From Sporichthyaceae bacterium (GTDB lineage: Bacteria > Actinomycetota > Actinomycetes > Sporichthyales > Sporichthyaceae), in the NCBI GenBank assembly GCA_036493475.1, contig DASXPS010000021.1:1-57419 (forward strand): DNA of 57,419 nucleotides, in the 5' to 3' direction. Of the stretch, positions 10,018 through 16,495 are shown piece after piece. Numbering within the stretch: the first letter of the stretch is position 1; each line of letters starts with the position of its first letter. The position numbers and the translations under genes are program-made. The notes beneath the pieces are model-generated. The model ran no database searches. It was not told where the DNA came from and saw only the letters and a program-made list of their open reading frames with translations.

Positions 10018-10336
10018 GTAACCCCTAAATAACCCGTTCGACTCGCCGAACGGCGGGTCACGTCGTCAATTCTACTGGTTCTCGGGCAGGCGACCCGGCC
10101 TTCCGGGCCTCAAAACGGCGCCGAGCCGCGATCACCCCCCGTCCACGTGTCCCCCCACACGGGTGACGGTCTACCTGCCCATTGTGGCGTGGGCCACAGT
10201 TGTCCCCGGGGAACTATCCCCATCTGTGGAAAACCCTGTGGACAACGCCCCTGGTCGAGGCTGACGTCATCCGCGTCGACCACCTGAGGCCCCGAATTGT
10301 GGCCAAGGAGGATGACATCAGCGTTGGCCACCGGGC
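10018..10336 (-). promoter_or_regulatory. gyrB upstream spacer with DnaA-box-like sites
   Basis: This 319-bp gene-free stretch separates the DUF721 gene from gyrB. It holds a perfect inverted DnaA box TGTGGACAA (10237-10245), a one-mismatch copy TGTGGAAAA (10225-10233) and a weaker TTGTCCCCG (10200-10208), all within 46 bases. Nearer gyrB lie the candidate -10 TAGAAT (10074-10069) and a 7-bp-stem hairpin (10034-10053). DnaA could regulate gyrB here or the sites could be an accessory origin part; both are inference. Confidence 0.6.
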
Positions 10337-14140: not shown

Positions 14141-14614
14141 CGGTCACCGCCTCCATTCGTCCGACGGGGGTCAGTCTGGCAGGCCCCGCGCGCGGAACCC
14201 AGGCAGGTGTGCACCTGTCGGACTTGTAGTGGCATGTCCAGAAATATCGATGTGCAGTCGTAGTACATCGGTGCGGTGGATGCTGTGGACAACGGCGTCC
14301 GTGCAGGTCGAGGCGCCGCGGTGAACGGCGATGTTGTGGACGGATCCGGGGACGGAGTCGGGGCCGCGGTGGATGGCAGCCGGCGCGGCGAACTATGCCC
14401 GGTTTGATCCCCGGGTCGGACCACACGATCCCCACCGTCGGTGCACAGGCGGCGAGTCTGGGGTATACCCGGCATCGCGAGGAGCGAAACATCGACGGCC
14501 CGAAAATCCTCTTAGGAAATTCTCAGTCCACAGGGTTGTTCACACCTGTGGGTATGTGAGATAGGACGAGAATGGGCCCGTCCGGAATTTCGAGAACGGC
14601 CGAACAACAAATCT
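14141..14614. other. oriC: chromosomal replication origin oriC (dnaA-dnaN spacer)
   Basis: 474 gene-free bases between dnaA and dnaN. A perfect inverted DnaA box TGTGGACAA lies at 14284-14292. Weaker copies are TGTGGACGG (14335-14343), CAGTCCACA (14524-14532) and TTGTTCACA (14536-14544, one mismatch). The segment 14500-14525 (AAAATCCTCTTAGGAAATT) is the most AT-rich stretch and adjoins the last two boxes, so it is the likely unwinding region. A GGGTATACCC palindrome is at 14461-14470. Consensus boxes are few compared with Streptomyces origins. Confidence 0.85.
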
Positions 14615-16063
14615 TCAGGCGTTCCGGTTCTGCTGTTTGATCCTTGCCGTTAACTCGGTGACCTGCTGATAGACACTGTGGCGTTGGGCCATCAAATCGC
14701 GGATCTTGCGTTCCGCGTGCATGACCGTGGTGTGGTCGCGGCCACCGAATTGCTGGCCGATCTTGGGCAGTGACATGTCGGTCAGCTCCCGGGACAGATA
14801 CATAGCGATCTGTCGCGCGGTCACCAACACCCGGGACCGGGACTGTCCGCACAGGTCGTCGATGGTCAGCCCGAAGTACAGCGCGGTCTGGGTCATGATC
14901 GTGGCCAGCGAGATCTCCGGGCCTGCCGCGTCGGCCAACATGTCCTTCAGCACGATCTCGGCCAGCGACAAATCGATGTCCGTCTTGTTCAGGCTGGCGA
15001 ACGCCGTCACCCGGATCAGCGCGCCCTCGAGCTCGCGGATATTCGCCGAGACCTTCTTCGCGATGAACTCCAGCACCTCGGGCGGGATCACCGTGCGTTC
15101 CTGGGCGGCCTTTTTGCGCAGGATCGCGATACGCGTCTCCAGTTCCGGCGGCAGCACATCGGTGAGCAGGCCCCACTCGAACCGGTTGCGCAGCCGATCC
15201 TCCAACGTGATCAGCTGCTTGGGCGGCCGGTCGGAGGAGATCACGATCTGCTTGTTCGCGTTGTGCAGCGTGTTGAACGTGTGGAAGAACTCCTCCTGTG
15301 TCTGCTCCTTGTTCTCCAGGAACTGGATGTCGTCCACCAGGAGCACGTCCACCGCGCGGTACCGGGAGCGGAAACCCTCGGCTCGACCGTCACGGATGGA
15401 GTTGATGAAGTCGTTGGTGAACTCCTCCGAGCTCACGTAACGCACCCGCGAGCCGGAAAACAAGCTCGAGGTGTAGTGCCCGACCGCGTGTAACAGGTGG
15501 GTCTTGCCCAGCCCGGACTCCCCGTAGATGAACAACGGGTTGTACGCCCGGGCCGGTACCTCGGACACCGCGACCGCCGCGGCGTGCGCGAAGCGGTTGC
15601 TCTCCCCGGTGACGAAGCTGTCGAAGACGTACTTCGGGTTCAGCCGCGCCTCACGCTCGGTGTTGATCCCGGACAACGCCTTCCCGGTGGGCCAGGCAGC
15701 GGGCTCCGGCTCGTCGTCGTCGATGTCGTCGTCCACAACTCCGTACACCGCTGCGGCCGGGTCGAGATCCGTCGGTGCACCGTCCTCCCCCGCCGCGGAC
15801 GGGCTGTCATCCACCGTCACGGCGATCCGGACGTCCTGCCCGGTGGCCCGGGACAGCGCGGAGGTGAGCTCCTCGCGCACCCGGGTCTCGATGACATCCT
15901 TGGCGAAATCGTTCGGGGCGGCGAGCACCGCCGTCCCCTCCACGAACGCAATCGGCCTGGTCAAACGCAGGAACGCGCGGTGGTTCTGGGGCAGGGCCTG
16001 TACGGCGTCGTCCACCAGCACCCGATCCCAGACGGCGGTCAGGTCTGGGTCGCGGTCGGTCAC
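14615..16063 (-). CDS. dnaA: chromosomal replication initiator DnaA
   Basis: 482 residues. Domain I covers about residues 1-80, followed by a short acidic domain II (around 90-125). Domain III (AAA+) begins near [11 protein letters not shown] and contains Walker A GESGLGKT (181-188) and Walker [10 protein letters not shown]. Domain IV carries the DNA-binding signature [15 protein letters not shown]. It binds DnaA boxes and opens oriC. GTG 16063 has GGGGGA about eight bases upstream. Domain II is much shorter than in Streptomyces DnaA. Confidence 0.98.
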
Positions 16064-16258
16064 GGTGGTCCCCCATATGACGGTGGTTCGCGGCGCTGAC
16101 TCATCCCTCGCTACCGCTTGCGGATGTGCCGAATTATGTCGGTTCGTCCTGGTTCTGCCGAGGGCGTTCGGCGCGTCGCCCGGGGATCATCCACAACGTC
16201 GTCCACAGGTGTGGACGAGCTGTAACACGGGCGTGACGCTGCGCCGCGCGCCAACGGT
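16064..16258. promoter_or_regulatory. dnaA-rpmH divergent spacer with three clustered DnaA-box-like sites
   Basis: Three nine-base sites, each one mismatch from TTRTCCACA, lie within 32 bp: TCATCCACA (16187-16195), TCGTCCACA (16199-16207) and its inverted copy TGTGGACGA (16210-16218). The minus strand also has CATAAT (16138-16133), a possible -10 for dnaA about 70 bases from its start. The cluster lies just upstream of that promoter, so DnaA may repress its own gene or the sites may extend the origin. Confidence 0.65.
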
Positions 16259-16288
16259 TTGACCCTGTGCAGCGGGCATGCGTACCGT
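16259..16288 (+). promoter_or_regulatory. sigma-70-type promoter of rpmH
   Basis: TTGACC (16259-16264), an 18-bp spacer and TACCGT (16283-16288) form one of the clearest housekeeping promoters in the window. The expected transcript start near 16295 leaves a leader of about 60 nt before the rpmH GTG. Confidence 0.7.
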
Positions 16289-16357: not shown

Positions 16358-16495
16358 GTGAGCAAGCGCACATTCCAGCCGAACAACCGTCGTCGTGCCA
16401 AGACGCACGGGTTCCGGCTGCGTATGCGGACCCGGGCCGGTCGGGCGATCATCACGGCGCGGCGGGCCAAGGGTCGACAGAAGCTCTCGGCCTGA
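16358..16495 (+). CDS. rpmH: 50S ribosomal protein L34
   Basis: 45 residues, beginning [19 protein letters not shown] after the initiator and ending [11 protein letters not shown], the full L34 sequence. The correct start is GTG 16358 with GGAG just upstream; longer frames extending to 16259 are not real. L34 is a small basic protein of the large ribosomal subunit. It heads the conserved rpmH-rnpA-yidD-yidC-jag-rsmG cluster that diverges from dnaA. Confidence 0.97.

Follow-up and report, generated by a model that had tools for sequence, protein, structure and literature searches.

DnaA is described as regulating its own gene by binding to the dnaA promoter in Streptomyces lividans and in slow-growing mycobacteria (in the part of the review PMC8203912 drawn on here), and PMC3982210, in the portion used here, names it as one of the proteins that may exert negative control over mycobacterial dnaA. 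A divided origin is defined, in the section of PMC4285127 used here, by a cluster of DnaA boxes on each side of dnaA together with a DUE on one side. In M. tuberculosis, M. bovis and M. smegmatis, oriC function is reported only for the 3' flank of dnaA, as far as the accessible part of PMC2607554 goes. We analyzed a stretch of 57,419 nucleotides from a Sporichthyaceae bacterium (the window) that contains three closely packed DnaA boxes between dnaA and rpmH. Autoregulation by promoter binding has been stated for S. lividans and mycobacteria, and we therefore propose, with a probability of about 0.8, that this triplet is an element of the dnaA promoter to which DnaA would bind, tuning dnaA expression, and that the origin proper would be in the spacer between dnaA and dnaN, across the gene from the triplet.

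The original prediction had placed three boxes, each one mismatch from consensus, in 32 bp between dnaA and rpmH, and the positions, spacing and mismatch status were all confirmed (Table 1). Each box differs at one position from TTNTCCACA, the start-to-start distances are 12 and 11 bp, and the triplet lies 124-155 bp upstream of the dnaA start, with the second and third boxes, at 16199-16218, forming a 9+2+9 inverted repeat with perfect arms (TCGTCCACA/TGTGGACGA). The packing is non-random, as 1000 dinucleotide-shuffled copies of the window never contained three such boxes within 32 bp and 20,000 shuffled versions of the 294-bp rpmH-dnaA spacer never contained three boxes anywhere. Nor are DnaA boxes frequent genome-wide, since the pattern TYNTCCACA has 120 matches in the 4.27-Mb genome compared to 151 for a control in which the pattern is reversed, and among the matches listed (100 of the 120) the rpmH-dnaA triplet is the sole group of three within 50 bp. 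An extra copy of TCGTCCACA is located inside the dnaA coding sequence at 15729-15737.

Table 1. Location of the genes, DnaA boxes, promoter elements and origin marks discussed in the text (positions within the window).
Feature	Position	Strand	Remarks
Presumed oriC (dnaA-dnaN spacer)	14141-14614		Holds the cumulative GC-skew minimum (14162)
Presumed origin-unwinding core	14255-14292	-	Box TTGTCCACA at 14284-14292, weak second box at 14275-14283
Lowest-stability 40 bp in the entire 57.4-kb window	14502-14541		Nearest-neighbour stability
Three-box block with triplet-like geometry	14524-14555		One inverted box, then tandem pair (11 and 12 bp); five-member family alignment
dnaA CDS	14615-16063	-	TIGR00362, 516 bits
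Predicted dnaA -10, CATAAT	16133-16138	-	5/5 family members
Predicted dnaA -35, TCGGCA	16156-16161	-	17 bp from -10; same hexamer in 4/5 family members
DnaA box TCATCCACA	16187-16195	+	dnaA-proximal member of tandem pair
DnaA box TCGTCCACA	16199-16207	+	Second member of tandem pair, 12 bp spacing
Third DnaA box, inverted, TGTGGACGA (TCGTCCACA on the - strand)	16210-16218	-	11 bp spacing
Predicted rpmH -35, TTGACC	16259-16264	+	18 bp from -10; GGTCAA (read on the dnaA strand) in 5/5 family members
Predicted rpmH -10, TACCGT	16283-16288	+	Identical in 4/5 family members
rpmH CDS	16358-16495	+	TIGR01030

The distribution of this arrangement was determined from loci around dnaA taken from relatives of the window and from named genomes (two overlapping subsets of the 60 relative genomes contributed, 30 by yielding loci and 40 in the form of stretches), and the rpmH-dnaA spacer was extracted from each. 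Once duplicates and loci whose stretch lacked rpmH had been removed, 119 distinct spacers remained, an uneven sampling in which Streptomyces is over-represented; dnaA-dnaN spacers longer than 1400 bp (or 3100 bp, depending on the analysis) were left out. A tandem pair, defined as two boxes on the strand opposite to the direction of dnaA and spaced by 11-13 bp (mostly 12), is present in 110 of the 119 rpmH-dnaA spacers. Both boxes are within one mismatch in 58 of these, and in the other 52 one of the two has two mismatches. In ten shuffled sets of 119 spacers each, the strict form never occurred and the relaxed form occurred 0-1 times per set. The pair was not found by this criterion in nine of the 119 spacers, four of which are among the 14 from Streptomyces. 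The inverted third box stands 11-12 bp in front of the pair with at most two mismatches in 62 of the 110 loci, where about one is expected, and a CACA core occupies its place in 86. All three boxes within one mismatch and in the order seen in the window are found in 10/119 spacers, including those of the mycobacterial loci L089 and L101. Scored as a three-box geometry with a weight matrix trained on boxes of the downstream (dnaA-dnaN) spacers from the same loci, 108/119 rpmH-dnaA spacers exceed 18, compared to a maximum of 8.2 among shuffles and two of 595 stretches outside both spacers. The spacers from Streptomyces are weaker (the pair in relaxed form in 10/14, a score above 18 in 8/14), and when they are set aside the pair and a score above 18 are each found in 100/105. 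A pair or triple is likewise seen between rpmH and dnaA in mycobacteria and most other actinomycetes. The upstream box element is, judged by sequence comparison, an actinomycete-wide feature of which the window carries a strong version. The cooperative DnaA binding that had been suggested from the tight packing is likely, because the cluster is non-random and its spacing of 11-12 bp is found again and again across the class.

A far larger number of boxes is found upstream of dnaA in nine loci (L093, L078, L071, L064, L052, L034, L039, L041, and L120), which have 7-11 boxes within one mismatch against a shuffle mean of 0.18 per spacer. Eight of these loci are named and represent Nocardiopsis, Sphaerisporangium, Planobispora, Streptosporangium, Acrocarpospora and, three times, Nonomuraea, genera that we take to belong to the order Streptosporangiales. 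As candidates for a bipartite origin, these loci rank above the window.

The surroundings of the boxes speak for a promoter element. In the alignment of a five-member family (the window and L111-L114), the conserved blocks of the rpmH-dnaA spacer are the box element and two predicted promoters, those of dnaA and rpmH, so that the boxes upstream of dnaA have conserved promoter hexamers downstream of them. Moreover, the element is found at the same place in the groups with demonstrated autoregulation, as the strict triple in the two mycobacterial loci and as the relaxed pair in Streptomyces. Binding of DnaA to the three boxes, the tandem pair and the inverted one, would be cooperative, and the bound protein would be situated at approximately -61 to -92 from a transcription start that we infer from the predicted -10, placing it upstream of the -35. 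From this position DnaA would tune, and most likely repress, dnaA transcription according to its level and state. The triplet is 25 bp from the predicted dnaA -35 in the window and only 3-4 bp in three relatives, which does not point to a single fixed mechanism. The promoter assignment comes from the family alignment only, because base composition over the 110 loci gave no fixed-distance promoter signal downstream of the pair.

Several independent marks put the presumed origin proper in the dnaA-dnaN spacer, which includes the point where the cumulative GC skew of the window is lowest. At 14502-14541, the weakest 40 bp of the window have a value of -1.287 kcal/mol per step, compared to -1.453 for the best site of the rpmH-dnaA spacer, and the predicted DUE is thus on one side of dnaA, the downstream one. 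The downstream spacer is less stable than the upstream one in 97/106 loci, and four of the five family members have the weakest site of their 15-kb locus within it, the one in L111 being elsewhere. The three-box block of this spacer (boxes at 14547-14555, 14536-14544, and 14524-14532) adjoins a conserved stretch that in the letters of the window reads CTGAGAATT..CTAAGAG, and the same geometry scores above 18 in 79/106 downstream spacers, where the scores lean towards the matrix because it was trained on those boxes. A general rule that the stability minimum is found beside this block was rejected, as the minimum is within 60 bp of it in only 7 of the 79 loci. The window and L112 do have it there; in most loci the minimum is some 180-240 bp further towards dnaN, by a double box, and the double-box stretch of the window (14227-14266) is the third separate weak site within 7.9-18.2 kb. 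That the dnaA-dnaN spacer of the window has few consensus boxes, as had been noted, is right by count (two within one mismatch; the weight matrix gives six, one of the lowest numbers in the 112 spacers), but this says little because the mycobacterial spacers of L089 and L101 hold just two and four.

The second conserved downstream block begins with the double box, in which one box is followed by another at +9; after four further bases come C(T/G)A trinucleotides. The double box is found in 99 of 112 dnaA-dnaN spacers, including those of all five family members, and in 69/112 it is followed by three or four trinucleotide units in register, an arrangement absent from 336 shuffles and from the 119 upstream spacers. 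In the window a trio-like CGATGTACTACGACTG follows the double box and ends at 14255, with an imperfect register that is common to the family, whose boxes are clear in 5/5 members and whose units are out of register (1/4 units in each). A strict search for [CT]T[AT] runs (at least three trios, with the central A on the bound strand) gave none in the five family members and 30 in the 106 loci of the class, and is too narrow for high-GC origins. Base counts anchored on the double box alone, using the 66 distinct of 75 non-Streptomyces spacers that pass the stricter level, gave T or G on the box strand as the middle base of units 1-5 in 64, 62, 50, 50, and 47 of 66, with G accounting for 16, 32, 28, 29, and 26. 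Since T or G on the box strand is A or C on the strand bound by DnaA, a cytosine is about as frequent as an adenine in mid-unit from the second unit on. The number of G-centered units rises with the GC content of the spacer (r = 0.45; 55 non-Streptomyces loci with at least three units).

We suggest that these C-centered trinucleotides represent naturally occurring deviant DnaA-trios. In B. subtilis, cytosine is reported to replace the central adenine of a trio better than G or T (PMC10721633, in the part considered here), and trios lacking the central adenine had been suspected earlier (PMC8287927, likewise in part). The residues given as contacting the trio in the accessible context of these two papers, Asn187, Ile190, Ile193, Arg202, and Glu228, are identical in the DnaA of the window, where alignment with 8btg places them at Asn217, Ile220, Ile223, Arg232, and Glu258 in our numbering. 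C-centered natural trios are what the available portions of PMC10721633 and PMC8287927 would lead one to seek in high-GC genomes, and literature searches on DnaA-trios in Mycobacterium or Streptomyces showed no paper on the point among the results listed, which does not prove that none exists. The arrangement resembles the basal unwinding system (BUS), as outlined in the part of PMC8287927 drawn on here, in having a box, a second box, a short gap and trinucleotide repeats in the dnaA-dnaN spacer. It differs from the BUS in that the actinomycete second box is directly at +9 and the central position of the trios, on the bound strand, is often C rather than A, and in the family of the window the register is imperfect and the strict central-adenine form is absent from all five members. 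M. tuberculosis provides little precedent for the site of unwinding, as the opening of its origin has been mapped at -500 to -518 from dnaN (in the portion of PMC2607554 at hand) and the double-box signature in L089 and L101 is 309 and 316 bp from dnaN; these positions disagree, which counts against such a precedent.

The original prediction had raised a different role for the upstream boxes, in which origin function could be shared by the two sides of dnaA. In a bipartite origin like those of B. subtilis and Helicobacter pylori, the boxes would form a subregion that loops across the gene to the dnaA-dnaN spacer. The window has boxes flanking dnaA on both sides as they do, the three-box geometry is common to both spacers with the frequencies given above, and both modules exceed the threshold together in 72 of the 106 loci in which both spacers were scored. 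The sequence also allows the divided-origin definition cited above (from the same section of PMC4285127), where three boxes upstream and two (strict) or six (matrix) downstream amount to clusters or not depending on the definition of a cluster. However, the upstream side has three boxes only and carries no unwinding signature, which at the stricter level is found in 89/112 downstream spacers compared to 2/119 upstream, and the skew minimum, the lowest stability and the signature of two boxes plus trinucleotides are all in the dnaA-dnaN spacer. Mycobacteria, as represented by L089 and L101, have the same upstream element and yet need no upstream side, with oriC function only 3' of dnaA within what PMC2607554 is drawn on for here. 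A shared origin in the window is thus unlikely, and a looping subregion of the B. subtilis type is an improbable role for the triplet, which may nevertheless have a helper role in the origin. Searches of the literature for an actinobacterial bipartite origin, and for boxes upstream of dnaA in Actinobacteria, each showed no paper on the point among the results listed, and absence is not proven by either. A more speculative thought, which we consider doubtful, is that the promoter triplet of Actinomycetia is a twin of the origin module, such that the same DnaA assembly on both would allow dnaA transcription to read origin occupancy. The twin could then act in cis as a dormant first half of an origin that was divided in an ancestor, and it would have its fullest form in Streptosporangiales-type loci with their 7-11 upstream boxes.

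The triplet might instead serve titration or timing, mainly sequestering DnaA near the origin and hardly affecting transcription. It is indeed close to the origin and another group of boxes exists upstream of gyrB at 10225-10245, although three sites are few and both the placement upstream of a conserved promoter and the orientation relative to dnaA have been kept, so that we see slim prospects for such a role. It is most improbable that 16199-16218 is the palindromic operator of another regulator, as relatives keep the letters of the boxes rather than the symmetry that the perfect arms give it in the window, with a central gap of 2-3 bp. The group upstream of gyrB, between a DUF721 gene and gyrB, comprises two perfect boxes, TTTTCCACA and TTGTCCACA, 12 bp apart. 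A group of boxes occurs there in 5/5 family members, and across the wider set any box is found in 26/84 loci and a tandem pair in 5/84, which perhaps makes this a family-specific DnaA site that regulates gyrB.

We return to the dnaA promoter as the place where the triplet would act. The observation is ordinary in kind; what is new is the class-wide geometry, together with the by-products described above. What had been guessed to be part of a bipartite origin becomes a class-wide and testable promoter element, and the fixed three-box geometry could serve to predict DnaA autoregulation in actinomycetes. In the loci examined, the element shares with the dnaA promoter boxes of S. lividans and mycobacteria its place between rpmH and dnaA, the type of box, and the 11-12 bp spacing of the pair. 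The window is distinguished from those promoters by having all three boxes within one mismatch and by the position of the group 25 bp above the predicted -35, unlike the Streptomyces spacers, in which the pair abuts a TTGAAC-like -35 (a hexamer judged by eye).
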